DNA of 64,000 nucleotides. Origin: Liolophura sinensis. Taxonomy: Eukaryota > Mollusca > Polyplacophora > Chitonida > Chitonidae. The DNA is taken from the NCBI RefSeq assembly GCF_032854445.1, contig NC_088305.1:27738628-27802627 (forward strand). The letters are read 5' to 3'. Below the pieces are notes generated by a model. The model did no database searches. It saw nothing but the letters and a program-made list of their open reading frames with translations, and had not been told where the DNA came from. The translations under genes and the position numbers were made by a program. Below are positions 1,462 through 41,700 of the stretch, piece by piece. Position 1 is the first letter of the stretch; every line of letters starts with the position of its first letter.

Positions 1462-1710
1462 GGTGTTCATCTTTTGAGTTTAGAGCTTTTCATGTTTCGA
1501 GTTTGTGGGTTTTCATCACCCAAGTTTTGTTCATCGTTTTTGTTCATCATATAGGTTTGGGGTGTTCGTCAGAGAGTGGGGTGTGTGCATCATCCAAATT
1601 AGCCAGTTTTCATTATCTTTGGGAGTGTTCATCACATGAGTTTGGGGATCTTTATTATCTCAGCGTTCTTCATCATGTCTGTTTGACATTGTTCATCATC
1701 TGAGTCTGGG
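1462..1710. repeat. Degenerate GTTCATCA-type repeats (copy A)
   Basis: Loosely repeated units around GTGTTCATCATCTGAGTTTG, irregular spacing of about 25-35 bp. The matching copy is at 5685-5925. Confidence 0.55.
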
Positions 1711-3454
1711 ATTCTATTTACAATGCAGTCACATTTTCATGGTGCAATTTGTCGCATAAACATATCAAAGACAACCACTAGAATGAAATTCCTCACCGTC
1801 TATGACAAATCATGAGAATGCAGCTTTAAAGAAGCTTAAGGTGAAGACAATGAATGCAACGTTTTAAGTTAATTAACTTATAATGACATAACCATTTCTT
1901 AATCACCAGCACAGCGTATTTAATATGCCTAATTATATACACCCAAATGTATAGAGACATTATACATAGATAGCAAAGCATACAAACTCAAGATTTCAAA
2001 ATGCCCCAGGAAATCATTACATCTTTCATTCATATACAATGCATGTGTAGTCTGAAGAATTTGACAAATGTTCTTCTAAAATGACAACTCATCCACAAAT
2101 AGATTCTTAAAACTTTTCAAGTGTAAATAAGGAAATATCAGATGAAATAACAGTGGTTATAGTATGGAGTGCACATCACAACTATTATCTTAGAGAAAAC
2201 TGAATTATCATAGCGATTTCCAGCACACGTCAGTAAGACAATATCACTCATTCAGGCCTGTCAAACTCTGAATCGATGAAATCAAAAGGCCAAAGGGAAA
2301 TTCAAAAATTTTCAGCTTTTGCTTCTAAACTGCATGACAACTGTCCATCACATAGAGAGTGCCATCTTTGTATTTGTACTGCAGACGACAATGACACAGT
2401 GATGCCATTTGGCGCAGCTAAGCGAAAGATGAATTCTCATTGGCTAAAATTCCTGATAAGGTTGCTGTCATGTTTTATTAGGCTCAGAGGTGGCTATCAC
2501 TGCCTGCTAACTATTCCGCGTAATCTTAAATAGTTTATTTTCATTGTAGTTCAAGGTCAAACGCAAGAATCTGACCATAACTCACAAACTGTAGACAGAA
2601 TATAGGGAGAGGTCATCAAAACCCCTAGCTAGGCATTTTTAGAGGGGTGTTGCATCTTGCCCCTAAAATGTGCACCCTGCCTGTTTTTTTGTCAGACACA
2701 ATGTTAATAGATAGGCAGTGGAAACTGCCACCCAGGTCATTTCTTGAGGACTGTACCTTTGCATTCTGCCCCTTTTGATTTCTAGTTAGGGGCCTGTCAT
2801 CCCAAACATTAATATTTAGAGGACCAGATTCTCAATAATTTCAATAATTAAGACTACAATTGTAATTAAGATTTCAATTAAGACTTCAATTGTAAACTAC
2901 TAGTACTACAATTCCGTTTCGATAAAGAATGTCATTGTGATGTAAGTACACACGCACTCAGTATATGAACATATTTCACAGATCTGCTCCACTGTGCCTT
3001 GAACTGAAGTGACGCCACCCACAGATGTAGATTCTACATGAGCATTTAAGCATTGTCTTAGATGAAGTCTTTGGTCTGATAAAGTTGGATAATATAACCT
3101 ATTAACAGATGTCTTCATAGTGTTAAAAGCACTGTGCCCTGTATCTCACAGCATGCACTATACAAGAACCGACAAACAACATTTCTTGGCTGCATCAATA
3201 TGCTTCATATACTTCAAACTAAAAATATGTCCAATCTCAAACTAAAAAATGATCTCATTTTAGACACACTGACAAAATACAATACTGAAGGATACCATTA
3301 CATACAGAAAAACAAATCATGTTCAAATTTTAAAATTTAGAACAATTCAAACTTAAAACAGGGTTTAAAAATAGAAGAAAAATAAACATGTCATTTCACA
3401 AAATTAATAGATAGTTGATTTTTCAAAACGATATTGGCTCAAATTTGAAAAGAC

Positions 3455-4873
3455 TTATCTGCTACGACTTCTATACCTTGAACGTCCATTACGAGCTGGG
3501 CTAGATTGAGGAGATCGCCTTGGTTTGTACTTTTGCTGATTTTTGGCATAACTGTTAATTTTTCTAGACATATCATGTTCACTGTCACTACTATCAGAGT
3601 CCCGTTTACGCTTCTCTCTCTGTCTCCTGTCTTGTCTCGCTTGCTTAACGCCCCTATCAATAGAAGAGTCTGAGTCCCGTCGTTGCCTTCTAGGTTTTTC
3701 AACAGAGCTGGAATCTCTTTGCTGCCTTCTGGGTTTTTCAACAGAGCTGGAATCCCTCCGTTGCCTTCTGGATTTTTCAACAGAGCTGGAATCCCTCTGT
3801 TGCCTTCTGGATTTTTCAACAGAGCTGGAATCCCTCCGCTGCCTTCTGGATTTTTCAACAGAGCTGGAATCCCTCTGTTGCTTTCTGGATTTTTCAACAG
3901 AACTAGAGTCCCTTTTTTTCCTTCTGGGAATTTCAACTGAGTCCTTACGTGACTGCCTTGGATTTTCAAAAGAACTAGAATCCCTCCCTTGCCTTCTGGA
4001 TTTCTCCACAGAATCTCTTCTCTGCTTTTTGTCTCTGGCCGTTTCCTCAGCATACCTTTTGTCCCGCCCTCGCTCTCTTGTCTCATTTGAAGATGAATTT
4101 CTTCGGTGTTTTCCATACTTCTCTACAGATTGTCTCCCTTGAGGATCTCGCCTGGCGTTATTATGAGAACTCCTAGGATGGGAAAGCGTCATGTCACGTC
4201 TATGTCTGTCATCATGATGCTGACCACCACTTCTACTTCTTTCTCTTTTCCTCTGGAATTCTTCTCCATCAGACTCTACAACAACATGAACAACACGAAC
4301 TTAATTTACTTATTTATTGCCAGGAGTCTCTCACCAATGCGGCCGCTGTGAGTTCAAGTCCAGCTCATGCTGGCTTCCTCTCAGCAACCTGCAGATAGTC
4401 GTGGGTTTCCCCCGGGCTCTGCCTGGTTTCCAACCACCATAATGCTGGCCACCGTCGTATAAGTGAAATATTCTTGAGTAAGGCGTAAAACACCAATCAA
4501 ATAAATAAATGAATACTTATTTATTAATCTCACTGTTGCTGAATTGGGGCTGAACACTGTACAAAAAAATATTTCAGTCATACGATGACAGTGAGTTACA
4601 TGCATGGAGGAAAACAGAGAATTAGACTAGATTTTGGAGGTTGCAAGGTACCCTTATACTATACCCTTTAGGGCCATTTTGGCTCAAAATGAAGAGTTCT
4701 GTGAGAAGCTAGTCACAAGTCCAAAACCTTTGGGGTTTGATGTGAAGTGAGTGGCACATATAAAGTTATCTCACCTGAGTCAGATTGTGAGTCACTGGAA
4801 GACTCTGAAGATTCCCTTTCGATTCGGCGTTTTGACTTCTTGGATTTGCGAGACTTCCCTTTAACATCTTGGT
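3455..4873 (-). CDS. CIR1: Second copy of CIR1 terminal exons 9 and 10 (distal, intact frame)
   Basis: Exons 4873-4775 and 4275-3455 repeat the last two CIR1 exons about 4.2 kb further downstream. Exon 9 has the same length (99 nt). Exon 10 keeps the same six RDSSSVEK-type repeats but ends [13 protein letters not shown]-stop, whereas the proximal copy has an extra T in the coding strand and ends ARNWTFKV-stop. If joined to exons 1-8 this version would give 554 aa. The arginine-serine ending fits the RS-like tail better, so it is probably the ancestral reading frame. No copy of exon 8 lies next to it because an N gap interrupts. It is probably the other allele of the same locus misplaced by assembly and not a second gene. 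A real tandem duplication is the alternative. Confidence 0.85.
4319..4515 (+). mobile_element. SINE family A in last CIR1 intron (copy A)
   Basis: Truncated in the tRNA-like head but with the B-box-like GAGTTCAAGTCC, body and (AATA)n tail on plus. It lies within about 50 bp of the exon 10 acceptor, on the upstream side in gene orientation. Confidence 0.8.
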
Positions 4874-4964
4874 CTGTTAACAGAAAGAATTTGATTTCAA
4901 AACAACTTCAAAATGCATTATCTTCAGTGACACAGGTAAACTTTTTGCAGTGCCCAAGGTTCTA

Positions 4965-5395
4965 AGATTTAAGGTTAAGTGGCCAGAGGAAACACCGCAG
5001 AGGGGTATGCTCACCCACCTGAATCACTGCCAGCTTTTGTGTGTTTGTAAGAGTGTAAAATTTGAGGTCAGGTAGACAGAGGAAACACTGCACCATGCTA
5101 TGCTCATCCACCTGTATCACTGCTACCTCTTCTGTGCTTGTACGAGTGTAAAATGTGATGTCATGTGGACAGAGGAAAGATTGCACCATGCTAATTCTTC
5201 TATGTTTGTAAGAGTGTAAAATTTGATGTCAGGTGGACAGAGGCAAGATTGCACCATGCTAACTCTTCTATGTTTGTAAGAGTGTAAAATTTGCATTTGG
5301 GTGGAAAGGAAACACTGTAGAAGGCTATGCTCACCCACCTGAATCACTGCTACCTTTATCTGTGTTTGTAAGAGTGTAAAATTTGAGGTCAGGAG
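4965..5395. repeat. CIR1 exon-8 donor minisatellite, left copy (cut by gap)
   Basis: Start of the same array as 9167-10270: units with CACCCACCTGAATCACTGC and TTTGTAAGAGTGTAAAATTT. It is interrupted by the N gap. Confidence 0.85.
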
Positions 5396-5595
5396 NNNNN
5401 NNNNNNNNNNNNNNNNNNNNNNNNNNNNNNNNNNNNNNNNNNNNNNNNNNNNNNNNNNNNNNNNNNNNNNNNNNNNNNNNNNNNNNNNNNNNNNNNNNNN
5501 NNNNNNNNNNNNNNNNNNNNNNNNNNNNNNNNNNNNNNNNNNNNNNNNNNNNNNNNNNNNNNNNNNNNNNNNNNNNNNNNNNNNNNNNNNNNNNN
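5396..5595. other. Assembly gap of 200 Ns
   Basis: An uninterrupted run of exactly 200 N. The round number suggests a default scaffolding spacer and not a measured distance. Both flanks are low-complexity tandem repeats: the CIR1 donor array on the left and the CAGAG/CCCTGAG minisatellite on the right. Confidence 0.99.
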
Positions 5596-5684
5596 AACCC
5601 CGAGTAAATCAGAGTAACCGTACTTCACCAGAAGTCCTATGTACTTGTATATACATGTCCTTGTGTTGCTCACCACCTGAATTT

Positions 5685-5925
5685 GAGGGTGTTCATCTTT
5701 TAGAGCTTTTCATGTTTCGAGTTTGTGGGTATTCATCACCCCAAGTTTTGTTCATCGTTTTTGTTCATCATATAGGTTTGGGGTGTTCGTCAGAGAGTGG
5801 GGTGAGTGCATCATCCGATTTAGCCAGTTTTCATTATCTTTGGGAGTGTTCATCGCATGAGTTTGGGGATCTTTATTATCTCAGTGTTCATCATGTCAGT
5901 TTGATATTGTTCATCATCTGAGTCT
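5685..5925. repeat. Degenerate GTTCATCA-type repeats (copy B)
   Basis: Duplicate of 1462-1710, with small indels. Confidence 0.55.
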
Positions 5926-7670
5926 GGGATTCTATTTACAATGCAGTCACATTTTCATGGTGCAATTTGTCCCATAAACATATCAAAGACAACCACTAGA
6001 ATGAAATTTTTACACCGTCTATGACACATCATGAGAATGCAGCTTTAAAGAAGCTTAAGATGAAGACAATGAATGCAATGTTTTAAGTTAATTAACTTAT
6101 AATGACATAACCATTTCTTAATCACCAGCACAGCGTATTTAATATGCCTAATTATATACACCCAAATGTATAGAGACATTATACATAGATAGCAAAGCAT
6201 ACATACTCAAGATTTCAAAATGCCCCAGGAAATCATTACATCTTTCATTCTTCATGCATGTGCAGTCTGAAGAATTTGACAAATGTTCTTCTAAAATGAC
6301 AACCCATTCACAAATTGATTCTTCAAACTTTTCAAGTGTAAATAAGGAAATATCAGATGAAATAACAGTGGTTATAGTATGGAGTGCACATCACAACTAT
6401 TATCTTAGAGACAACTGAATTATCATAGCGATTTCCAGCACACGTCAGTAAGACAATATCACTCATTCAGGCCTATCAAACTCTGAATCGATGAAATCAA
6501 AAGGCCAAAGGGAAATTCAAAAATTTTCAGTTTTTGCTTCTAAACTTTATGACAATTGTCCATCACATAGAGAGTGCCATCTTTGTATTTGTACTCCAGA
6601 CGACAATGACACAGTGATGCCATTTGGCGTAGCTAAGCGAAAGATGAATTCTCATTGGCTAAAATTCCTGATAAGGTTGCTGTCATGTTTTATTAGGCTC
6701 AGAGGTGGCTATCACTGCCTGCTAACTATTCCGCGTAATCTTAAATAGTTTATTTTCATTGTAGTTCAAGGTCAAACGCAAGAATCTGACCATAACTCAC
6801 AAACTGTTGACAGAATATAGGGAGAGGTCATCAAAACCCCTAGCTAGGCATTTTTAGAGGGGTGTTGCATCTTGCCCCTAAAATGTGCACCCTGCCTGTT
6901 TTTTTGTCAGACACAATGTTAATAGATAGGCAGTGGAAACTGCCACCCAGGTCATTTCTTGAGGACTGTGCCTTTGCATTCTGCCCCTTTTGATTTCTAG
7001 TTAGGGGCCTGTCATCCCAAACATTAATATTTAGAGGACCAGATTCTCAATAATTTCAATAATTAAGACTACAATTGTAATTAAGATTTCAATTGTAAAC
7101 TACTAGTACTACAATTCCGTTTCGATAAAGAACGTCATTGTGATGTAAGTACACACGCACTCAGTATATGAACCTATTTCACAGATCTGCTCCACTGTGC
7201 CTTGAACTGAAGTGACGCCACCCACAGATGTAGATTCTACATGAGCATTTAAGCATTGTCTTAGATGAAGTCTTTGGTCTGATAAAGTTGGACAGTATAA
7301 CCTATTAACAGATGTCTTCATAGTGTTAAAAGCACTGTGCCCTGTATCTCACAGCATGCACTATACAAGAATCGACAAACAACATTTCTTGGCTGCATCA
7401 ATATGCTTCATATACTTCAAACCAAAAATATGTCCAATCTCAAACTAAAAATGATCTCATTTTAGACACACTGACAAAATACAATACTGAAGGATACCAT
7501 TACATACAGAAAAACAAATCATGTTCAAATTTTAAAATTTAGAACAATTCAAACTTAAAACATGGTTTAAAAATAGAAGAAAAATAAACGTCATTTCACA
7601 AAATTAATAGATAGTTGATTTTTCAAAACGATATTGGCTCAAATTTGAAAAGACTTATCTGCTACGACTT

Positions 7671-10600
7671 CTATACCTTGAACGTCCAATTACGAGCTGG
7701 GCTAGATTGAGGAGATCGCCTTGGTTTGTACTTTTGCTGATTTTTGGCATAACTGTTAATTTTTCTAGACATATCATGTTCACTGTCACTACTATCAGAG
7801 TCCCGTCTACGCTTCTCTCTCTGTCTTCTGTCTTGTCTCGCTTGCTTAACGCCCCTATCAATAGAAGAGTCTGAGTCCCGTCGTTGCCTTCTAGGTTTTT
7901 CAACAGAGCTGGAATCTCTTTGCTGCCTTCTGGGTTTTTCAACAGAGCTGGAATCCCTCCGTTGCCTTCTGGGTTTTTCAACAGAGCTGGAATCCCTCCG
8001 TTGCCTTCTGGATTTTTCAACAGAGCTGGAATCCCTCCGCTGCCTTCTGGATTTTTCAACAGAGCTGGAATCCCTCTGTTGCTTTCTGGATTTTTCAACA
8101 GAACTAGAGTCCCTTCTTTTCCTTCTGGGAATTTCAACCGAGTCCTTACGTGACTGCCTTGGATTTTCAAAAGAACTAGAATCCCTCCCTTGCCTTCTGG
8201 ATTTCTCCACAGAATCTCTTCTCTGCTTTTTGTCCCTGGCCGTTTCCTCAGCATACCTTTCGTCCCGCCCTCGCTCTCTTGTCTCATTAGAAGATGAATT
8301 TCTTCGGTGTTTTCCATACTTCTCTACAGATTGTCTCCCTTGAGGATCTCGCCTGGCGTTATTATGAGAACTCCCAGGATGGGAAAGCGTCATGTCACGT
8401 CTATGTCTGTCATCATGATGCTGACCACCACTTCTACTTCTTTCTCTTTTCCTCTGGAATTCTTCTCCATCAGACTCTACAACAACATGGACAACACAAA
8501 CTTAATTTACTTATTTATTCCCAGGAGTCTCTCACCAATGCGGCCGCTGTGAGTTCAAGTCCAGCTTATGCTGGCTTCCTCTCAGCAACCTGTGGATGGT
8601 CGTGGGTTTCCCCCGGGCTCTGCCTGGTTTCCAACCACCATAATGCTGGCCGTCGTCGTATAAGTGAAACAATCTTGAGTAGGGCGTAAAACACCAATCA
8701 AATAAATAAATAAATATTTATTTATTAATCTGACTGTTGATGAACTGGGGCTGAACACTGTACAAAAAAATATTTCAGTCATACGATGACAGTGAGTTAC
8801 ATGCATGGAGGAAAAACAGAGAATTAGACTAGATTTTGGAGGTTGCAAGGTACCCTTATACTATACCCTTTAGGGCCATTTTGGCTCAAAATGAAGAGTT
8901 CTGTGAGAAGCTAGTCACAAGTCCAAAACCTTTGGGGTTTGATGTGAAGTGAGTGGCACATATAAAGTTATCTCACCTGAGTCAGATTGTGAGTCACTGG
9001 AAGACTCTGAAGATTCCCTTTCGATTCGACGTTTCGACTTTTTGGATTTGCGAGACTTCCCTTTAACATCTTGGTCTGTTAACAGAAAGAATTTGATTTC
9101 AAAACGACTTCAAAATGCATTATCTTCAGTGACACAGGTAAACTTTTTGCAGTGCCCAAGGTTCTAAGATTTAAGGTTAAGTGGCCAGAGAAAACACCGC
9201 AGAGGGGTATGCTCACCCACCTGAATCACTGCCAGCTTTTGTGTGTTTGTAAGAAAGTAAAATTTGAGGTCAGGTAGACAGAGGAAACATTGCACCATGC
9301 TATGCTCACCCACCTGTATCACTGCAACCTCTTCTGTGCTTGTACGAGTGTAAAATTTGATGTCACGTGGACAGAGGAAAGATTGCACCATGCTAACTCC
9401 TCTATGTTTGTAAGAGTGTAAAATTTGCAGTTGAGTGGAAAGGAAACACTGTAGAAGGCTATGCTCACCCACCTGAATCACTGCCAGCTTTTGTGTGTTT
9501 GTAAGAGTGTAAAATTTGAGGTCAGGTAGACAGAGGAAACACTGCACCATGCTATGCTCATCTACCTGTATCACTGCAACCTCTTCTGTGCTTGTACGAG
9601 TGTAAAATTTGATGTCAGGTGGACAGAGGAAAGATTGCACCATGCTAACTCTTCTACGTTTGTAAGAGTGTAAAATTTGATGTCAGGTGGCCAGAGGAAA
9701 GATTGCACCATGCTAACTCTTCTATGTTTGAAAGAGTGTAAAATTTGCATTTGGGTGAAAAGGAAACACTGTAGAAGGCTATGCTCACCCACCTGAATCA
9801 CTGCTACCTTTATCTGTGTTTGTAAGAGTGTAAAATTTGAGGTCAGGTGGACGAAGGAAACATTCCACCATGCTATGCTCACCCACCTGAATCACAGCAA
9901 CATCTTCTGTGTTTGTAAGAGAGTAAGCTTTAAGGTTAAGTGGCCAGAGGATACACTGCAGAAGGCTATGCTCACCCACCTGTATCACTGCCAGCTTTTG
10001 TGTGTTTGTAAGAGAGTAAGCTTTAAGGTTAAGTGGCCAGAGGATACACTGCAGAAGGCTTCCCTCACCCACCTAAATCACTGCTACCTCTTCTGCATTT
10101 GTAAGAGTGTAAAATTTAAGGTTAAGTGGCCAGAGGATACACTGCAGAAGGCTTCCCTCACCCACCTAAATCACTGCTACCTCTTCTGCATTTGTAAGAG
10201 TGTAAAATTTAAGGTTAAGTGGCCAGAGGAAACATTGCAGAATGCTTCGCTCACCTACCTGAATCACTGCTACCTTTCCTGTGTTTGTGCTTGTGTTTTT
10301 TCTTCCCTTTTTTCTCCGAAGACTTCCCTTTCTGCATCTTGTCAAGCTTTCTGTGACAATGTACAAAAAATTTCAAAACATTGTTTTGAAGAAACTCAAG
10401 TTTCATGAAGTTCTATAAGCTGGAGCATATCAACTTGCATTTCTCAGAAGAGACTGAATGTCACAGAAGAAACATCAAACAGGGATAGCCTAAATGGCTC
10501 CCAAGCTATATGTGTGGTACTGTTTTCTACTTTATAAGTCACCTTTCCAATATCAAATGTTTGTAGCTGGTATCACAAAGCCGATAGAACTTCATCACTA

Positions 10601-13600: not shown

Positions 13601-16600
13601 CATAATGCTGGCTGCTGTCATAGAAGTAAAATATTGTTGAGTACAGAGTAAAACACCAATCAAATAAAATAAATAAATATGATAGGAGGTAACTGGGGGG
13701 TCTCCTCAACTAATGTTGACGAGTTACTATAGCACAATATTGTCACTACTTAAATTACGTACCCTAATTCTAAAATTTGGGACAGATATTAGTAGTGTTA
13801 TAATATTACATATAGAATATTATATTTCTTTGCCAGTCTTTTGGGAAAGTAAAGATATGAGTATGTTGTTCATTAGATGGTCTAACCATATGAGAAAAAA
13901 GAAATTCAATATTTCTGCTAGTATATATATATATTGGCTAAAATGAGCAGACCAGGTGTCCCAAATTTTAGAAGAAATAGAGTAAACATACAAAACTGGG
14001 TAGAAATTACAGGAATGGGTATTTCATACACCTCGGCAATTATTATGCTTTTATTTTTCCACATTCAAACACAAACAATGCACTTAAAGTTACGACCAAG
14101 TTATGCTTTATATTGGCTGATGCTATCTGTTCTATATGTACAGGAATTTCATTATGGGATTTAAAATTCCTCTGAACAGATTAAAAAATTATACAACATT
14201 TATCCTGTTCATTCCGAATCAGTTCACAAAATTAAAATCAGTCTTGACAGTAGGAGCCACTTTCACAAAACTTAGCAATCAATTTTTCGTAAATTACAAA
14301 GTTTTGTGAAGGCGCTTTAATTTTGAAACTCGTCATTCGCCTTGTCATCAGAGGTCCCATCTAACAACAGTGCACTCCTAAAAAAAATCGTAATTTAAAT
14401 GGAAGAGGGACTTCAAAGGAGGTAATTCAGTGGGGAATTATTGAAGAGGGACTTACGCTGAGGCGGTTCAGCTGTCAAGTCCTCGAAGAAAAGAGGACAG
14501 ATCTTGTCTGTGTTCACGTGACCCCATTTCCTACACTTGATGCAGCGCACATTCCTCACTTCGATACCAAAGGGCTGGTCACGGATCGTCTCATCATCCT
14601 TGGCATAGCTGTAAAGCAAAACTTAGACGGTCAGAACATCAACCCTGTCACAGCGAGGTAAATCATAGCTGTAAAACAAAACTAGACAGTCAGAACATCA
14701 ATCCTGTCACAGCAAGGTAAATCATAGCTGTAAAGCAAAACTTAGACGGTCAGAACATCAATCCTGTCACAGCAAGGTAAATCATAGCTGTAAAGCAAAA
14801 CTAGATGGCCAGAACATCAATCCTGTCACAGCAAGGTAAATCATAGCTGTAAAGCAAAACTAGATGGTCAGAACATCAATCCCGTCACAGCAAGGTAAAT
14901 CATAGCTGTAAAGCAAAACTAGATGGCCAGAACATCAATCCTGTCACAGCAAGGTAAATCACGGCTGTAAAGCAAAACTAGACGGTCAGAACATCAATCC
15001 TGTCACAGCAAGGTAAATCATAGCTGTAAAGCCAAACTTTGACGGTCAGAACATCAACCCTGTCACAGCAAGGTAAATCATAGCTGTAAAGCAAAACTAG
15101 ACAGTCAGAACATCAACCCTGTCACAGCGAGGTAAATCATAGCTGTAAAGCAAAACTTAGACGATCAGAACATCAATCCTGTCACAGCAAGGTAAATCAT
15201 AGCTGTAAAGCAAAACTAGACGGTTAGAACATCAATCCTGTCACAGCAAGGTAAATCATAGCTGTAAAGCAAAACTAGACAGTCAGAACATCAGTCCTGT
15301 CACAGCAAGGTAGATCATGGGCAATGCCTTCACTCTTCAGGTTGATTATCAAAACATACTGGATTTTCTTATTTGAAACGCTTAAATGAAGCAAACCTTT
15401 AAATACAGAGTTAACATGCAAAACCAATATGTCACAAAAGGTGGCATAAGGCCACACCAACTTAAATTGCTGTTTTAGGGGCAGAATAAATCTTTTTTTT
15501 TTCCTGTTGAAGACATATTTACATGACTGATAAGCCTTGAAAACAAAAGGGAATCAAGATCAAACAACATAAAAATGTGAATTTTCAGCTTTATTTTTAC
15601 TGAGTATCTGGATTTTATTTCTGTTGGCTCACTCGTCACCAACAAGTCATTCAGAGAATACCGGTAGCTCCCCTGATTGAGCAGTTCAAGCTTGTTCAAG
15701 TCATGCGCTATGTTCAAATATTGACCTCTAAAACAACATAACCTACAATGATTGACTCTGTCATACACAGATATGATTCTCTAATTATTTAGTGCTAAGA
15801 TCTTGCCATTAAATTAACAAGAAAGACCAAAATTATTATACTGTCCCAAGTATGACTGTTTATCATATGCCCAAGGATTGCATGGCAGTGACTTCATATG
15901 TTATGGAGTTGTAAATCATAGAGGTGGTAAAAGACACTGTAGGGAATGTCAAATTTACCGCATATGCAAATCACAAACTGCATTTGGCAATCCATGTACT
16001 ATGGGTGGCAAATGCAACCCTGTGAACGGCTGAGGAAATGTTCAGTCATTAAGTTAAAAAACTTTCTTGGTCTTTAATACCCTAAATGACCTAAAATTTC
16101 ATCCATGACCAAGTTGCTCATTTTTCCAGATTCAGGGAGTTTTACTGATTTTAGAAAGGTGCTTTGAGAAATGTTTGAAAAGTAGGATGATATCCTACTT
16201 GGAAAATGTAAATTTTAGCACCAGCAGTGATATCTCATGACATTTATTTGCCCTGAAAAATTCTGTTTTGAGGTCGAATTTTTAGGTCAGTTATCTCATT
16301 AATCGCATTCACATATGTAGAGACAACACAATACCTTAACATGATCCATTAACGTAAAAACCAATATGGATGAAAGTATGTACAATCATAAACACTGCGT
16401 GGATGTGAATTCATTATGTTATTGATCATGGCACAGCTAAATGTAAACATACACGGAACAAGGATCACAAAAGCTGGCAACAGATGATCACTGCCTATCT
16501 TCCTACGTGTCTTCATCCAAAATCAGCACTGTCCAACATACATGTACATAATCAAATAACCATTTAGAGCTACGACGTATATGTAAGAAGAGAAATGATA

Positions 16601-19973: not shown

Positions 19974-22900
19974 ATGACCTTTGTTTTACCCGCAACGCTA
20001 TTTAGAAGACAGCTTCGTCGCATGTATGTGTGTTTTCTTAATCCGTGTCCTGGATAAACGAAGCCACATAAATGCAAAGAGATCTCTGGAAATGAAAGAA
20101 AGGTTTTGGATAAATAATTCGATGCAGGTCGCTGCCAGGTGATCAAAAAGAATCAAAACGACTGGAAGTACTCAAACATTGAAGATTAGGAAATCAGTGA
20201 TAACGTCATGTGCATCGTATCTAACATCAGACCACTCAGACTAGACAGAGCTTGATTAGTTCAAATATAGTTTAGGCACCCTTCTGATTGGCACAGTTAT
20301 CAGTTTCACTATTTGTACACTAATTAAACAACGTTAAATGTACTACATTTACCTCCATTTTTTAGATTTCTGACCTTCGGTTGGTAGATGTCGACCAACA
20401 AGTAAATGTCAGAATGTTAAGTAAGGAGAGAGATCGTTTAGCTCGCTGAAGTATTTGTACATGTACATGTAAGTAAGTTAATAACAAAAAAGTCGGGATC
20501 ATTTTGGATCCCAAGCTATTGCCCCCCAAATCATTTGAACAGGTCAGGATATGCCCTAAATCTGACCCTGCCATTGATTTTTGTTATGTTAAACTATGTC
20601 ATACGAGGCAAACATTTCACTCACCATGCACGATTTCAGTATCAGTAACATGCATGTCCGATGCATTTTTATGCAGACCTTCTGCCTCTCTTCATGTGTT
20701 CCTGTCAGCTTGTCTAGATCAGCGCGTCTGGATTTGTATTTGTTCTTTTACGTTAAGAAATTACATGTAAATTTCTTATTTTTTAAAGATGGCTTCTTTG
20801 AAAATAAATTGATATGTTTTACTTACTAGCCATACATTTACTCACACTAACACGCCACTCCAGTTCTTAGGCTAACAATTAATTTGTTCCTAATAAATCT
20901 CAATGTGTTTTTGTTTCAGTCTAAATAGCTCTGTAATGAGTATGCAGACCTCGGCCAAGCAAGCTCGACCAGATCATCTTGAAAGAACAGCCAACAACAC
21001 AAGGGAAGATGTAAGATAAACATTTATAAGTTAAAATGAAATAATGTAAAAATGAATAAGAGAAAATGACGTGATATCACAGACATAGATGTACACACAA
21101 TTAACGGGCCCTACACAAATACATTGATTGCACAACATATGCTTTTTATTATTTAAATCATATTCATACATGTAATTTATAAATTTTTCATGTTACTATG
21201 ATGTTATTTTCCTACATAAAAACAAGCCAAGTGTGATGAAAAAATAGTCATTAACCTTCGATCTAATTTTTAAGAATTTTATTATATTGGGTATATATTT
21301 TAGTATAAATGATGTAAGTATCAATATGCATGCAGGTTTATAGGTATATATAACCACTTTGGTGGACTAATGGTTAGAGAGTCTACCTCCCGGTAGACTC
21401 GGGATCAAACCCAGGTCGAGTCATACCAATGACTTTCAAAATGGTAGTTGTTGCTGAGCACTGAGAGGTTAGAGCAAGGAAACAGGATTGGCTGGCTTGG
21501 TGTCAGTGTAATGTGACTGGATTGGTACCATGTCTGGTGTCTTTGGCATGATACCTCAGTGGCAGAAGCACTAGCTTTGGCGGCATGGACTGCCCTGCCA
21601 CAAGAAGACACCGTATATGTACACACACCTGATGACTCCTGGTCGTCATATGACTGAAAAATGAGTAAGTGTGACGTTAAACCCAAAGCATTCATTCATT
21701 CATTCATTTAAGTTATGTTACTACCACAACTATGGGATATTCCTGTGTTCTATAAATTCACAGGAGGGCAGTGGTGAAGTGCATCTTACCCAAAACTATA
21801 TATTACACCATGGCTATAAAGAATATCAAAAAATTATTATCTCATCTAAGAGTGACATCAGAGAACATTGTTAATGTTTAGAAATTATAGTTCAGTTGCT
21901 TTTAATTAATTCTCGTCATACACCAACCTAGGTAAAATTGTATTGATTTACCCTGTCATCCTATATAGAGGTGGTGACACACTGCAAAGGGGAATCGCTA
22001 TGCTGCTGATAAGGCTGTAACTGTATTACAAAAAACAAGACTTTCTTTACAGGTGATTTCCCCTGCCACAGTGACATCTATCACACAGCTGTCAGCCACA
22101 GTGAAGGGTCTAAAGTTGAAGGTTCATGACTTGCGACTGAGGTTTAAAGCAGGACAGTGGTAAGACTGACGTGACAAAAAATGTTTGGAGAATGCCGTCT
22201 TGTATGGAGAATATACCGTGCAGTATTTTGCATGATTGTGATGTATGACAGGTTTTATTATTCATACCTGGTGTGGATGATTTTGCAGGATTGATATGAC
22301 TGTGTGGTGGATAATTTACAGTGTCAGTTTCACTGTGCCACATGTGGATGATGTTACAGGGTTGATATGGCTTTACCAGGTGTGGGTGATGTTACAGGGT
22401 TGATATGACTATAGCAAGTGTGGATGATATTGCAAGGTTGATATGGCTTTACCAGGTGTGAGTGATGTTACAAGGTTGATATGACCATGCCACGTGTGGA
22501 TGATGTTACAGGGTTGATATAACTATAGCAAGTGTGGATGATGTTACAGGGTTGATATGACTATAGCAAGTGTGGATGATGTTGCAAGGTTGGTATGTCT
22601 AGAGCAGGTGTGGATGATGTTACAGAGTTGATATGACTATAGCAAGTGTGGATGATGTTACAGGGTTGATATGACCATGTCAGGTGTGGATGATGTTACA
22701 GGGTTGACATGACTATAGCAAGTGTGGATCATGTTACAGGGTTGATATGACTATAGCAGGTGTGGATGGTGTTACAGGGTTGATATGACTATAGCAGGTG
22801 TGGATGGTGTTACAGGGTTGATATGACCATGTCAGGTGTGGATGATGTTACAGGGTTGACATGACTATAGCAAGTGTGGATGATGTTACAGGGTTGATAT

Positions 22901-25900
22901 GACCATACCAGGTGTGGATGATGTTGCAGGGTTGATATGACTATACGAGATGTCGATGATGTTACAGGGCTGATATGACTATACCAGGTGTGGATGATGT
23001 TAGAGGGTTAATATAACTGTCCCAAGTGAGGGTGATGTTACAGAGTTGATATGACTATCCCAGGTGCGGGTGATGTTACAGAGTTGATATGACTATCCCA
23101 GGTGTGGGTGATGTTACAGGGTTGATATGACTATACCAGGTGTGGATGATGTTACAGGGCTGATATGACTATACCAGGTGCAGATGATGTTGCAGGGTTG
23201 ATATGACTATACAAGATGTGGATGATGCTGCAGGGTTGATATGACTATACAAGATGTGGGTGATGTTACAGGGTTGATATCACTATACCAGGTGTGGGTG
23301 ATGTTAGAGGGTTGATATGACTATAGCAAGCGTGGATGATGTTGCATTGTTGAGATGACTATCCCAGGTGTGGATGATGTTTCAGGGATATGACTGTACC
23401 AGGTGTCAATGGTGTTACAGGGTTGGTATAAAGGTATCAGATGAGGATGATGTTAGAGGGTTGATATGAATATACTAGGTGCGGATGATGTTGCAGGGTT
23501 GATATGACTATCATAAGTTTGGATGATGTTAGAGGGTTGTTGTAACTATACCAGGTGCAGGTGATGTTAGAGGACAGGGTTGATATGACTATACCAGATG
23601 TGGATGATGTTGCAGAGTTGATATGACTGTACCAGGTGTGGGTGATGTTAGAGGGTTGATATGACTATAGCAGGTGTGGATGATGTTTGAGAGTAGATGA
23701 TGTTACAGGGTTGTTATGACCATGCCAGGTGTGGATAATGTTGCAGGGTTGATATGACCATACCAGGTGTGGATGATGTTAGAGGGTTAATATGACTGTC
23801 CCAATTGAGGATGATGTTACAGGGATATCACTATACCAGGTGTGGGTGATGTTACAGGGTTGATATGACTATACCAGGTGTGGATGATGTTACAGGGTTG
23901 ATATAAAGGTATCAGATGTGGATGATGTTAGAGGGTTGATATGACTATAGCAGGTGTGGATGATGTTGCAGGGTTGATATGACTATCACAAGTTTGGATG
24001 ATGTTAGAGGGTTGATATGACTATAGCAGGTGTGGATGATGTTGCAGGGTTGATATGACTATCACAAGTTTGGATGATGTTGCAGGGCTGATATGACTAT
24101 ACCAGGTGCAGATGATGTTGCAAGGTTGATATGACTATACGAGATGTGGATGATGTTGCAAGGTTGATATGACTATACGAGATATGGATGATGTTGCAGG
24201 GTTGATATGACTATAGCAGGTGCGAGTGATCTAAGAAGGTTGATATGACTATAACAGGTGTGGATGATGTTACAGGGTTGATATGACTATCCCAAGTGTG
24301 GGTGATGTTAGAGGGTTGATATGACTATAGCAGGTGTGGATGATGTTAGAGGGTTGATATGCCTATATCATGTGTGGATGATGTTACAGGGTTGATATGA
24401 CTATCCCAGGCGTGGATGTGGTTGGTGGATTTTCAATGAGTTCCTCACCCCGTCAGCTGTGTGATAAGGGAATGATAGACTTAGCAGTTAAGCACAGCAG
24501 TCACCCCCCAGCCGCATGGGTCCATGAAAAGGTAGGTTATAAGTGTGACCCTCATAATGCTGTTATCACTGATGAGTGTAAATGAGTATTGTCTCTTTTC
24601 ATGAAAGCCATCAGGTGATACATTGTGACTCAATGGTCTGCCTTAACATATCAAATCAAATATGGTCAAGTAATGGTGGAAGCTAGTTTCTAGAATGTAG
24701 GACCTGGAATTTTCTTGAATCACTTATATAGATATATATATATCTTATCATTGTTTAGCCAGGCAGTCAAATTGTTGCAAGTCTTTTAACCAGAAATTGA
24801 AATGGTGTAAATACATACATGTAAATCAGTCGCTCAGTCATTGCCTGAGATGATCTTGGACTCACTTACGTTGTGTTTGTCTTCAATACATCCTGATTCC
24901 ATCCTCATGTATTATCAGACCAGGCATTCCATACAGACGGGAATTTCCAGTCTGATATTGATCCTGGGAATTCCCCCACCCACTTTAGTATTTCAGTCGA
25001 TCATCTTAAAGTGTAAACAAAGTGAAAAATTATGTGTGCCTCAAATAAAAGGTAATGGCAAACTGCATCCAGAAATACTTCTAAGGTACTTTATCAGATA
25101 TGATTTTACAGAAAATAACTATTTTCAAAAGTGATCTGTTGGCAAGTAAGGGAAATTGTGATGAAGAAAGTGGTGTGACATCAAAAATTCTAAAAAATGA
25201 AAATAGTTTTGGGTACAGTTTTGTATGGGGGCTTGAATGTCATCCATATTCTTGGGAATTCCCCCAATCTGAGGATTACCCCACCCACTTAGTCATCAAT
25301 CAACATGTATCTTCATTTTTTCTCATCTGTTTTCTCCTCCCAAGTGTAAGACTGGTGATCAGGTGACAGTACGGACAGGTGGGGATTTCTATTACGACCC
25401 TCAACCAGGGGATCTCCCTACCCACCTACTTCTGCTAGCTGGGGGCGTCGGCATAAATCCTCTCATTAGCATACTGCGTCATGTGACTGACCTCAACCAA
25501 TCAGATATGGAAAAACCAGTCCAAGCTAGGCTGTTGTATTCAGCCAGATCTGAAGATGAACTTATATATAAGGTAAGTACACTATTAAAGTTTTACTGGC
25601 CGTGGTGGCAAAGTGGTTAGAGTGTCTGCCTCATAAATGCTTGAAATTACAGGAAATGTAGGAAGACATTGCTCATTTCAGCAATGTGTTCAGATATTTT
25701 TGACGATTGTTTTTCTATGGCACTGTGGCCACTGACCAGTTTAAATTATTACTTTAAGGGCAGAATGTTGGAGCAGATAATAAAAATAAAAAATAAAACT
25801 TTAAAATCATTTATGGACTATCCCAGCAATTTTTCTCATTGAAAACCTCTTTACATGATTGGAAAGCCTTGAAAAACATGAAATTCTTAAAAACCTCAAG

Positions 25901-35700: not shown

Positions 35701-38700
35701 CCAATAGCTTTGGCAATGTATCCAAATGTATTGACTGTAGCTCTCCGAATGGCCTTCTTGTGGGCTTTCAGCAACTCCAGCAGCTCAAAACAGATTCGCA
35801 TCCATTCTCGTGCCGACACAAACTCCGCCCCTCTGTCGGCTATTCGACCAACAAGATCAATGCAGTTCTCTTGCACCTTTTCGTGTCTGGAAGAAAATAG
35901 ATATGACTAAAAACAACAGACGCATTAAAATCCAAATTCACATACTTTCTCTTTACCATGAAAATACTATGCTAGTTATTAGATCTTAATTTGGCCTGTG
36001 AAAAAGCCCTGTCAGAAACACATAAGGGCCTTAAAATGATACCTTTGATGTCTATAGTGAAGTTTTGGGAAAAGAAATTATTTAAAATTCACAAAAAAAT
36101 GGATAAATCAATCAGACTCAAGCAAAATGTGTCACTTGAAACTTGCTTAAAGGTGACATGAAATGTTTTTTAATTTAAGAGCAAAACGATGCAAATACAG
36201 TACCTAATTTTGAGTATTCAGGTGTTTCTTAAATAAATCATTTTTTTTTTTTGCAAGACAGAAGTAAGGATTCATATGCACAAAAATTCTTTAACGGCTG
36301 ACCCCTATGACACAGCATAGTTATACATGTCGTTGATGGATCATAATGATACATATTAATAATACTTTCAAGCCAGTTTGCAAATCACCCCTAACAAAGC
36401 CAGTTTGCAAGTCACCCTTAACAAAGCCAGCTGGCAAATCACCCCTAACAAAGCCAGTTTGCAACTCACCCCTAACAAAGCCTGTTTGCAACTCACCACT
36501 AACAAAGCCAGATTGCAAACTCACCCCTAACAAAGCCAGCTTGCAAATCACCCCTAACAAAGCCAGTTTGCAACTCACCCCTAACAACGCCAGTTTGCAA
36601 CTCACCCCTAACAAATCCCATTTGCAACTAAAGCCAGTTTGCAACTCACCCCTAACAAAGTCAGACTGCAAACTCACCCCTAACAAAGCCAGCTTGCAAA
36701 TCACCCCTAACATAGCCAGTTTGCAACTCACCCCTAACAAAGCCAGTTTGCAACTCACCCCTAACAAACCCGTTTGAAATCACCCCTAACAAAGCCAGTT
36801 TGCAACTCACCCCTAACAAAACCCGTTTGCAACTAAAGCCAGTTTGCAAATCACCCCTAACAAAGTCAGTCTGCAAATCACCCCTAACAAAGCCTGTCAT
36901 TCACTAATTTGCTCAAATTCAAAATGAGAAAAGCAATCGTTAACATAACAGGGTGCAAATAAGCTAATGTGTGTGCCATTATTTGATGCACTCCTCTCAG
37001 ATTTCCCTTAAAACACTACATGCTTTCAACGCTGTCTTATGTGCTGGCAATCCTATTTGTCTTTATTCTCTAGATCTCATTATTATCATGCATTGGATAT
37101 TTATCCTAAATTACTATAAATTTCGTCAACGACTAACCTGCCCATTTTCACTGATTCTGAGAGTTCTGCTGAGTTTAGAAACTTATTTTGAGGATTGTCC
37201 GGAACATGGTATGATATTCTACTGGAAAATTTCAGTACCAAAAATAACATTTTGTGACATTTTAGGTCATTTAGGGTATTTTAATTTTATTTGTTAGGCA
37301 ATGTAAAGCCAAAACATAGCAAACAATGTTGTGTGTGAGATACGATACTGAAGTCTCTCTACATTGCTTCGTGTGTGAACGCCTCGAGGAAAAACAATGT
37401 TGTTACAAAAGGAACAATTTACCTTCAATCAAGAAAAATATTATGTATTTAACACCGAATCCAATGAACAGATTGTAGACGAACACTTCGGAGACTGACC
37501 TGTTTTTGAGAATTGGTGTCAGGCGTGGGAGCAGATCTTTGATGGGAGGCGTCATCTTGGTCATGCCGATCACATTGACGATACCCTTAAGGGCACCTAG
37601 GATGCTGCCCAGTACCTCCGGGTACTCCTCTCCTAGGTACTCATACAGTACCACACCCAAGTGACCCATCAGCTTCTCCTGAGAGGGGAATCAGTAAGGA
37701 GAGAAGGTTAGAGGGCTGTATAAAGATAGCAGATTGATATTTCTGAGGGAAAATTTAAGCAGGTAGATTCGCAGGTAAAGGGTTACTACTTTACCTAGCA
37801 CAATTATATGTATCAATACAAATGCTCATTAAATGCTCCATCTTAAATGCTCTATTCTCCAACTATTAAGACACTGTCAAATGAAAATTTCTTTTTTCTA
37901 GAAATATAGGAATTATCTGAAATTTTCATCAAATGTATGAAGAAATAGAAGGATCTGAAAAATATACGAAAGGGTTTACTCTTCATCCGATGTACGTGTA
38001 AATCACATTCCTTTTATTATTGTTGCTTTATGACATTCTCAAAACTTTTTCACTTATACACTGGCAGTTAGTAGATCACGGCTGGTGCAAATCAAAGAGC
38101 TCAGAGTAAACCTTGGCTCAAGTAACTGAGAAACTTAGCATGTGAGATGTCATATCGGTGGAAGGAAATTCATCAGAAGGAACTTAATGCAAGACTACAC
38201 AAGAGAATACAATCCAATAATTGCTACCACTGAATTGCTACCACTGAATTTCTTAATTTGATTTTGGAGACAAAGCTACATGGTTGGATTGGCCAATTTT
38301 TTGAGCTATAATTTAATCAGTCTACACAGAATAATGCCTTCAGAATATGCTTAAATAAACACCTTGCAAACATGTGAAATAAAGGTTGGAGAATTTAAGT
38401 AGATTAGTTCTCAACAACACAGGAACTACACAACACCTGGATCCACGACCATGCACGTTTAACTTACCTCTTGGCAGGTCTTCATCACGATAGCTATCCT
38501 GGAGATCAGATCAGCTGCCTGCTGACGCACTTTTGCAGACTTATTGTTGAGACGCCAGAGGATGGTACCACAGATCTGAGGGAGGTACGGCTTGACGCGC
38601 TTCCCAAGAGCGTTCACCACTGTACCAAACCCATTCAACATCACCACATCCTGCAAAACAGTAGAAGCTATCATCAGTAACGGACAACATCACATTCTAG

Positions 38701-41700
38701 ATGATACAAAGTGCACTGATTAGCTGTTTGGGTATATACATTAACACACATCATCACATTCTAGATGATACAAGGTGCACTGATTAGCTGTTTGGGTATA
38801 TACATTAACACACATCATCACATTCTAGATGATACAAGGTGCACTGATTAGCTGTTTGGGTATATACATTAACATACATCATCACATTCTAGATGATACA
38901 AGGTGTACTGATTAGCTGTTTGGGTATATACATTAACACACATCACATTCTAGATGATACAAGGTGCACTGATTAGCTGTTTGGGTATATACATTAACAC
39001 ACATCACATTCTAGATGATACAAGGTGCACTGATTAGCTGTTTGGGTATATACATTAACACACATCATCACATTCTAGATGATACAAGGTGCACTGATTA
39101 GCTGTTTGGGTATATACATTAACACACATCACATTCTACATGGTAGAAGGTGCACGGTTTAGCTGTTTGAGAATATACGTTTACATATATCACCACATCC
39201 AATAACACACAAGGTGTAATGAGTAGGCAATACATCATTAAAGATATGTTTGATGGTCGTACCCTGCCCTCCCCTCCCCATTATGAAGTATATATTGGGA
39301 TTCTGATCAGGTTATTTTTGTTTGATTAATTTTCTCTCCACATTAATTTGTTTAAAAATACCTATCTTTTTCATTAGCAAGCACAAAAAAATTTCCCACG
39401 GACACATTTATTTCTGTTAGAGTTCGGTTATGCCCTACAAAAACTTTTTTTAGGAAGGCTTAGCTGTTACAGCATATACCTTTACATAAACATTCACTAC
39501 AACATCACTGGAATGTAAACATTTCGAAATGGTGATGGTGCACAATAAAAACTCTCTATGCACTAGATCCTTTCCGAACAGACTGACCTCTGTGGTCTGT
39601 TCCTGGAAAGCGTACAATATGCCGTCGATCAGCTGTTCCTCTAGCCGCGAGTCCACATCAGCAGCACCCAGGTTACCCAGGATCTTCTCTATCGTCTCCA
39701 TCACCATCTTCCTGTACTGTTCAGCCTCATCCTTTAGGTCGTCCACCACACGCCCAATAATCTCGGCCGCACCCACCTTGTTGCCGATCTCCACAGTCGT
39801 GTCCACAAGCTGTTGAACAGTTATACATGTTTTATGGTATGGCACTGCTTTCATTATATCTAAGAATGTCAGCATTCATCAAAATTTTATTTATCGCAAC
39901 TGAGGTCAGGCTCATGAAACCAAACGGAGATCAGAGGAACTATGTCACCTTAACAGTAACGTGACTCAAGTATCTTGCGTTTATTGCGGATATACAAGCA
40001 GGAGCTGCCATTCAGAAATATGTTTGTGCCAACATCACCATGTTTTTGCCAAAAGGTGCATTGAGATACTTCTGATATAGGTCTCCTTAAACTGGGATGG
40101 CCACAAGAGACGAGAATTCTATTCATCTTTAAGGGGAGAATTTTAAAGTGAGTTTAGAAGGTAGGAGGATATCCTACTGGAAAAAGTACTATAGGAGTAT
40201 GTCATACCTGTCTAAAAATGCACTATTTTGACTGAAATCGGACGTGATTTCGAGTAATTGTACAAACTACGCACCTGTCTGTAGTTCCTTCTGTCCAGGG
40301 CCATCCTCTGGTTCCAGAAGTGTTTGAAGAACGGAGGCAGGATCTCGTCTTTAATGTACTGAGGCTCTACACCATCTGTGGCACAACACTGCTTCACTAC
40401 CTGCAGACAGAGACAGTAGTATTGATTCACTGCTCATAACCTCCTCGTTAGAATTATCTGGAGGATTCCTTTATATGTTTGTAAATATCCTGATCCTATA
40501 CATATCAATATTTCACTTAAGAACCACTAGCTGAGTAATATTTTCTTCACAATTTTCTGTGTCTTCTCATCATGAGACTGGAACTTCAGAAACTGGAGCG
40601 AATGTTTCTTCTTCCATGTTCGCGATTCTAAATGACTGATCTCACTCAGAAGCCAGACTGATCTGACTCAGAAACCTGACTGACCTGGCTCATGAGCCAG
40701 ACTAATCTGACTCAGAAACCAGGCTGATCTAATCTGACTCATAAGCCAGACTAATCTGACTCAGAAACCAGGCTGATCTGATCAGACTCAGAAACCAGAC
40801 TGATCTGACTCAGAAACCAGGCCGATCTGACACAGAAACCAGACTGATCTGACTCAAAAACCAGACTGATCTGACTCAGAAACCTGACTGATTTGATCTG
40901 ACTCAGAAACCAGGCTGATCCGACTCAGAAACCAGGCTAATCTGACTCACCTTGAGTACAATTTTCTTCATCTCTTCATCAGGGGACTGGAACTCTCGGA
41001 TCAGGATCAGCATGACCTCACGGGTGTAGTAATTAGCATATTCTGCATCCATCAGTGGGATCAGGTAACCAATCGCTTTCAAGAAAGCTGCCAAACCCTG
41101 AAGAAGAAATATGGTGTTTAGTAATACGCTAAAAGTACTGAAAACATAGAAGAAAAAACTGGAAAACATGATGTTTGGTTGTCATCAACAAGACACTTTG
41201 GTAATAAACAAATATTTAAAATAAACAAACATATGTAACGAACAGTTGTGATTAACATTTGTAATAAACAAACATTTGTGATAAACAAATATTTGTAATA
41301 AACAATCAGTAAAAACCTTAAATCAGGCACTAGTTTAAATCTTGAAATAATCTTTCATGTGCACAAGATATACCTACATACACTACATATTTTACTAAGT
41401 TACTTCTTTCAGTAAAAACACTCATTGTTTTTTTTGGGGTCTTATGACTGTGTATACAGACTTACTTTTCCTCTATGTTGACGAATACCCTTCCAGAGGG
41501 GTTTGAGGACGCTGTCAAAGGACTCAATCCCGTAGGGCGTGGCCGCCTCGGCCAGAGCAGCCAGGGCCAGAGCTGTGATTGTACGCACCTTCTGCTGTTC
41601 ATCTACAAGTCCTACAACCCGACACATACAAACAGTTATAGGAATTCACAACAGTGAATGGTGGAGAAAGTACGCTTGGAAAATCCTAATGTGCACTGCT

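Follow-up and report, generated by a model that had tools for sequence, protein, structure and literature searches.

An OXNAD1 intron of Liolophura sinensis holds a minisatellite that copies the acceptor splice site of the adjoining exon, one of several junction arrays in this genome

The stretch of DNA considered here (the window, 64,000 nucleotides of contig NC_088305.1 of the chiton Liolophura sinensis) was found with tblastn to carry CIR1 (minus strand), OXNAD1 (plus strand), SF3B1 (minus strand) and the end of HSPD1 (minus strand); the tblastn queries and the reference used for spliced alignment were human proteins, OXNAD1 included. A molluscan origin is very likely from the gene content too: one stretch of the assembly contains eight matches to the molluscan hemocyanin domain, taken to be specific to molluscs, and for a piece of the gene concerned the best PDB matches are hemocyanins, KLH1 among them. 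Most of one OXNAD1 intron is taken up by a 38-bp minisatellite, one unit of which consists of 10 intron bases and about 28 coding bases from the acceptor region of the exon that follows, as a preliminary description of this DNA had proposed. The name 'exon 4' used there follows that description's own numbering, the 5' end of OXNAD1 lying outside the mapped part of the gene. The elements of the locus are listed below by their positions in the window; a slash marks an exon boundary.

22116 to 22159, plus strand: 3' portion of the OXNAD1 coding exon that precedes the array, with ...AAAGCAGGACAGTG at its end (tblastn and spliced alignment; the spliced peptide matches FAD_binding_6 and PDB entries).
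22160 to 22165, plus strand: gtaaga, the 5' splice site of the intron that holds the array, itself uncopied (spliced alignment; junction-copy test of 52 window junctions).
22264 to 24418, plus strand: the 38-bp minisatellite, with 58 unit slots (56 full), each unit taking in the acceptor and about 28 coding bases (Tandem Repeats Finder, TRF; wrap-around alignment; genome search with a 22-mer).
22279 to 22289, plus strand: the first decoy acceptor, 22288/22289, the sole decoy of 55 with both a score at least equal to that of the true site and a branch-point-like word in its AG-free stretch.
24354 to 24358, plus strand: TTGAT, a word that resembles a branch point and has its A at 24357, 32 nt upstream of the true acceptor.
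24371, plus strand: T replacing the consensus G in the last decoy unit, by which an internal AG is removed and a 36-nt AG-free stretch is left (wrap-around alignment).
24390 to 24531, plus strand: the OXNAD1 exon that starts inside the last array unit (tblastn and spliced alignment; the spliced peptide has matches in Pfam and the PDB).

Spliced alignment to human OXNAD1 placed the donor at 22159/22160 (gtaaga) and the acceptor at 24389/24390, and the last unit of the array, at 24380-24417, is the real junction, GATGTTACAG/GGTTGATATGACTATCCCAGGCGTGGAT. The preliminary description was right that an array exists, but its range (22263-24531, about 54 copies) took in the exon as well; the array itself starts about 100 bp inside the intron. 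When compared with Pfam, the spliced peptide matched FAD_binding_6, NAD_binding_1 and NAD_binding_6, each slightly over the cut-off, and in a PDB search it aligned through KAGQWVDMTIPG to reductases of known structure. The exon by itself gave no match in Pfam. Of the 96 pattern matches obtained in genome contigs for bacterial relatives of the spliced peptide none was confirmed, and the 64-kb window contained no match to Rfam at gathering thresholds.

The coding bases copied in the array belong to a part of the FAD domain that can be aligned with bacterial reductases. Because it is a conserved part of the protein that has been copied, the exon is supported as the source of the array, in agreement with what had been suggested before. 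Wrap-around alignment revealed two differences between the exon copy and the array consensus, and both are synonymous third positions (ATA against ATC and GGT against GGC, codons read by eye). A search of the 609-Mb assembly (632 contigs) with a 22-mer taken from the unit gave 44 matches with no more than 2 mismatches, each of them inside the OXNAD1 array, so neither a dispersed satellite nor an unrelated one matching the unit was found elsewhere at this stringency. With 3 mismatches 14 matches were obtained, 12 of them outside the array, and a reversed control pattern gave 7; all these counts are lower bounds, and gaps in the assembly read N. When the exon end of the array served as a DNA query, 24 places were listed, every one of them at this locus, so that no second copy of the OXNAD1 locus was seen. 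The element is a minisatellite in that its 38-bp units, within the usual range of about 10-100 bp, stand head to tail, and a splice-site minisatellite in that its units contain a site copied from the adjoining exon.

A strict ungapped count gave 53 copies, all on the intron side of the junction, with AG at the exact place in 46 of them. With a small tolerance, an acceptor AG was present in 55 decoy units (38 CAG, 11 GAG and 6 AAG); only the unit at 23338 departs from the expectation that every unit would carry one. In aligned columns the A of the acceptor is kept in 55/55 full decoy units and the G in 46/55. Each of these units agrees with the consensus at between 26 and all 38 of its positions, and the majority are different from one another. 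Joining the upstream exon to each decoy led to a stop in all 55 cases, in 34 after a peptide of 16 residues and in 5 at once. That upstream acceptors would truncate the protein, as predicted, thus holds for all the unit sites and likewise for the 156 AGs of the intron, none of which leads into the exon with the frame open; on this ground the possibility that an upstream acceptor is used in frame was rejected. The exact peptide predicted earlier arises only at the decoys at 23119 and 23857, although its length is that of the 34.

Acceptors were scored with a matrix trained on the 23 other acceptors of the window, a small set that stands behind all matrix scores given here. The true OXNAD1 acceptor obtained a leave-one-out score of 8.5, in the upper half of the 24 window acceptors, and 3/55 decoys scored at least as high, so the true site is not the best by the matrix. 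It is preceded by 36 nt free of AG, a stretch that contains TTGAT at -32; no decoy reaches this length, the longest AG-free stretch among the 55 being 35 nt. A branch-point-like word had been claimed for each unit, and indeed 48/55 decoys have one 15-50 nt before the acceptor. It rarely lies within the AG-free stretch (4/55 decoys, or 6/55 if AGs up to 12 nt from the word are tolerated), because an extra AG sits between the word and the acceptor. An AG exclusion zone, together with the bypass of AGs near the branch point, is described in PMC2991248. The earlier view that the sites are near-identical to the splicing machinery is weakened by the GAG or AAG of 17/55 decoys and by the absence of a 36-nt AG-free stretch from all of them.

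The preliminary description missed that the OXNAD1 array is one of several cases in this genome and that human precedents are known. Two siblings lie in CIR1.

14604 to 15318, minus strand: a 59-bp array that copies the acceptor TTTTGCTTTACAG/CTATG of the exon starting at 14608, with about 12 units according to TRF and 10 copies by the strict count.
9192 to 10288, minus strand: arrays of about 93 bp (TRF; exon end read by eye) that copy the end and donor of the exon 10350-10259 (GATTCAG/GTAGGTGAG), with 9 copies.

In the former, 5 exon bases are copied, the units retain TTTTGCTTTACAG or a closely similar word, and AG is present in 10/10 strict copies. Further arrays were found in the chaperonin and adaptin genes that served for the junction counts below, in genes which, from reading their translations, we take to be CCT5, CCT3, an AP-3 delta-like and an AP-3 beta-like gene. 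In CCT5 (L029, 2711-3531) 109-bp units comprise part of an exon and its donor, and CCT3 (L034) has units of 66 and 88 bp at one donor and of 47 and 60 bp at another. The AP-3 delta-like gene (L047 and L046) carries 26 copies of one acceptor in units of 47 and 49 bp and 3 copies of a second acceptor, and the AP-3 beta-like gene (L041) has a donor with 3 copies. Thus the repeated site is an acceptor in OXNAD1, and a donor in a CIR1 exon, CCT3, CCT5 and the AP-3 beta-like gene. The nine junction arrays have 3 to 53 copies each, at acceptors and donors of conserved genes. Pooled, they hold 126 copies, a non-random sample since the arrays were chosen as hits; each of the 126 lies to the intron side of its junction, and AG or GT is preserved in 111. 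At least one decoy scored as high as the true site in 8/9 arrays, by a matrix that includes the true window sites.

Some other repeats of the window were noted in the course of this work. In SF3B1, one exon of which was compared with the PDB and matched SF3B1, a 22-bp array at 40634-40949 (minus strand) begins right at the donor AAG/GTGAGTCAGAT, its unit consensus having CT where GT would be expected. In the same gene a 64-bp array at 38684-39198 (minus strand) ends about 34 bp before an acceptor and contains the word AATGTGATGATG, which resembles the exon start GATGTGGTGATG. The regions at about 1500-5700 and 5700-10000 look like a tandem segmental duplication of about 4.2 kb, with a CIR1-like coding stretch that has 39-bp coding repeats of its own; a run of N at about 5.3-5.6 kb lies within it.

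A separate problem is how often junctions are copied in this way. A position was counted as a hit when a copy within 3 kb reached at least 4 bases to both sides of it with a score of at least 20, and one function was used for all sets; an earlier version of the test, which needed 6 exon bases, found 1/52 window junctions and missed the CIR1 acceptor with its 5 copied bases. Spanning copies were found in the window at 2/52 junctions, 116/622 intron positions and 2/311 exon positions. The corresponding values were 3/85, 236/1272 and 30/527 (part of the last in a match that was dropped) for the chaperonin set, and 3/60, 107/672 and 4/357 for the adaptin set. Pooled, 8/197 junctions (4.1%, 95% interval 1.8 to 7.8%) had such copies as against 459/2566 intron positions (17.9%), with a Fisher p of 2e-8 that is indicative, since the intron positions of one array are not independent. 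The rate of repetition at junctions is therefore about 0.23 times that at intron positions. After the CIR1 arrays junctions might have been expected to be hot spots of repetition, a possibility ruled out by the depletion in all three gene sets: junctions are depleted of tandem copies, not targeted by them.

Several choices define these figures. The chaperonin set comprised 45/50 matches to hidden Markov models, those that sat in long single open frames or outside the fetched pieces being left out, and the adaptin set 31/37 such matches with 60 junctions. Of 87 chaperonin junctions tested, 5 were hits by the program, and 2 of these hits came from match L034 (28-169), which was dropped with its untrusted edges as it runs through an array. 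In both sets a junction was put where the matrix score was highest close to the edge of a model match, not where a transcript showed it, and their 'intron positions' may include unannotated exons. Two of the 26 window introns (SF3B1 first and CIR1 fifth) have uncertain edges, the exons between being unmapped; their 4 junctions are among the 52 and gave no hit. The ninth junction array, at the donor of CIR1 exon 7, was spotted by eye and does not count among the 8/197.

As far as sequence features can tell, these observations are best accounted for by ordinary minisatellite growth from an exon junction, filtered by selection, with the exon-proximal site still in use, and we hold this explanation with fair confidence. 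A piece of DNA of about 38 bp, lying across the OXNAD1 acceptor, would have been tandemly duplicated, and slippage or unequal exchange could have expanded it to nearly 60 units; the mutational origin of the array was probably ordinary. The geometry of such growth would put all extra copies on the intron side, so that the exon-proximal junction stays and the array is removed as intron, the last acceptor presumably being the one that is used. Many decoys are probably poor competitors, through GAG or AAG in the 17 mentioned and, in most, through the extra AG that separates the branch-point-like word from the acceptor, and the AG lost from the last decoy unit would give the true site its clear stretch of 36 nt. 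Mis-splicing would lead to a stop and, as may be expected, to nonsense-mediated decay, and errors would cost yield. Other junctions of the genome would have been hit by the same process.

Several findings weigh against this explanation, or at least against the part that local signals play in it. Among the acceptors of the 26 listed window introns, the true one at the OXNAD1 array is the poorest in pyrimidines (7/17 positions), and 4 decoys, too, have a branch-point-like word in a clear stretch, which makes about 5/56 sites in all, so that this feature alone is only suggestive. In the array of the AP-3 delta-like gene, 12/23 AG-bearing decoys combine CAG, a stretch of at least 20 nt and a score not below that of the true site; in 7/23 the stretch is no shorter than the true site's 30 nt, and 5/23 match or beat that site in all four of triplet, score, stretch and branch-point-like word (rows read by eye). 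In CIR1, 10/10 decoys equal the 11-nt AG-free stretch of the true site. AG exclusion as a general rule, which fits OXNAD1, thus fails in the AP-3 delta-like gene and in CIR1. As AP-3 delta-like decoys are locally equal to the true site, local signals are not the whole answer, and another influence would have to act at these two arrays, be it exon proximity, exon enhancers or leaky splicing.

A rival view is that decoys are chosen at a meaningful rate and tune OXNAD1 output, the number of units setting the share of transcripts that goes to premature-stop isoforms and decay. Such a role would be in line with the retention of CAG in 38/55 decoys and the stop reached from all 55, with the lack of any sign that AGs are purged (A in 55/55 and G in 46/55 full decoy units), and with the decoy at 22288, which passes both local tests as the true site does. 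We nevertheless consider it unlikely, as the rarer repetition of junctions than of intron positions (8/197 against 459/2566) points to a cost rather than a benefit. Less probable still is that the decoys near the exon were selected to be weak, the array having been shaped to protect the true site. The internal AG lost from the last unit would suit this idea, and GAG or AAG occurs in 5 of the last 7 decoys as compared with 12/48 earlier ones (Fisher p 0.024). However, the cut at 7 was picked after looking, cuts at 3, 5 and 10 give p values of 0.22, 0.17 and 0.054, and neighbouring units share changes through local copying. The C at -3 is moreover unexceptional, being changed in 11/55 units, with columns 6, 25, 26, 29 and 36 more variable.

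It is very improbable that the intron itself was born by tandem duplication of a piece of exon, as in the AGGT model, with the array as its trace. The consensus unit does contain CAG/GT besides the acceptor, so that both types of splice site are present in many units, but no junction copy was present for the donor of this intron, and the two intron ends are therefore not both in copies of one segment; the array starts about 100 bp into the intron, and a unit spanning intron and exon would imply that the intron is the older of the two. An artefact of assembly or annotation we regard as a negligible prospect, for although long arrays are a challenge for assembly and the number of units may be in error, the divergence of mostly distinct units (26 to 38 of 38 consensus matches) is unlike the stutter of a single read, and like arrays occur in the CIR1, CCT3, CCT5 and AP-3 genes.

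In this mollusc a few percent of the splice junctions, thousands by extrapolation to the whole genome, might border arrays of their own site, and the spliceosome would routinely have to ignore many locally equal sites; we put this forward tentatively, as somewhat short of an even chance. The genome would then amount to a large-scale natural experiment in how exon-proximal splice sites are chosen. Choice among look-alike sites has been studied largely with engineered copies; Reed and Maniatis, in 1986, reportedly duplicated splice sites in test genes and observed that proximity and exon sequence decide the competition. Their copies are said to have been engineered, whereas the mollusc arrays are natural and have up to dozens of copies. 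With 3 to 53 copies, the latter supply series of decoys, and OXNAD1 a clear read-out (stop or not). The junction-to-intron ratio of 0.23 may serve as a rough measure of the selection that removes splice-site duplications, and as a first estimate of their tolerance. The lasting interest lies in the natural series of decoy sites and in a measurable depletion.

The literature searched contained no report of acceptor arrays this large or of a genome with junction arrays at this frequency. The kind itself is already known from human genes, and the special status of the OXNAD1 array is reduced by the junction frequency of about 4% in our sample. In human IFI6 (6-16, G1P3) a minisatellite with multiple splice donor sites was described by Turri et al. 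(1995), as cited in passages of PMC3618361 and PMC4526556. Its units, too, carry a splice site; however, donors are repeated in IFI6, and two downstream units are used as donors according to a passage of PMC4526556, whereas in OXNAD1 acceptors are repeated, of which the last is the one presumed to be used. About 53 copies and a 38-bp unit that is not a multiple of 3 also set OXNAD1 apart from IFI6 as these passages present it. PMC2812944 reports variable internal tandem repeats that sit at exon-intron boundaries in human genes of segmental duplications, with 27 intron modifications. There, as here, minisatellites (with units of about 30 bp) lie at exon-intron boundaries and alter gene structure; the genes described there are young duplicates of primates, averaging about 4 units, while ours are conserved mollusc genes with 3 to 53 copies. 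Finally, intron gain by tandem genomic duplication is reported for a potato RNA-dependent RNA polymerase (RdRp) gene (PMC4974935). Tandem duplication takes part in a change of splice sites or introns in both systems, but in OXNAD1 it would have lengthened an existing intron rather than produced a new one.

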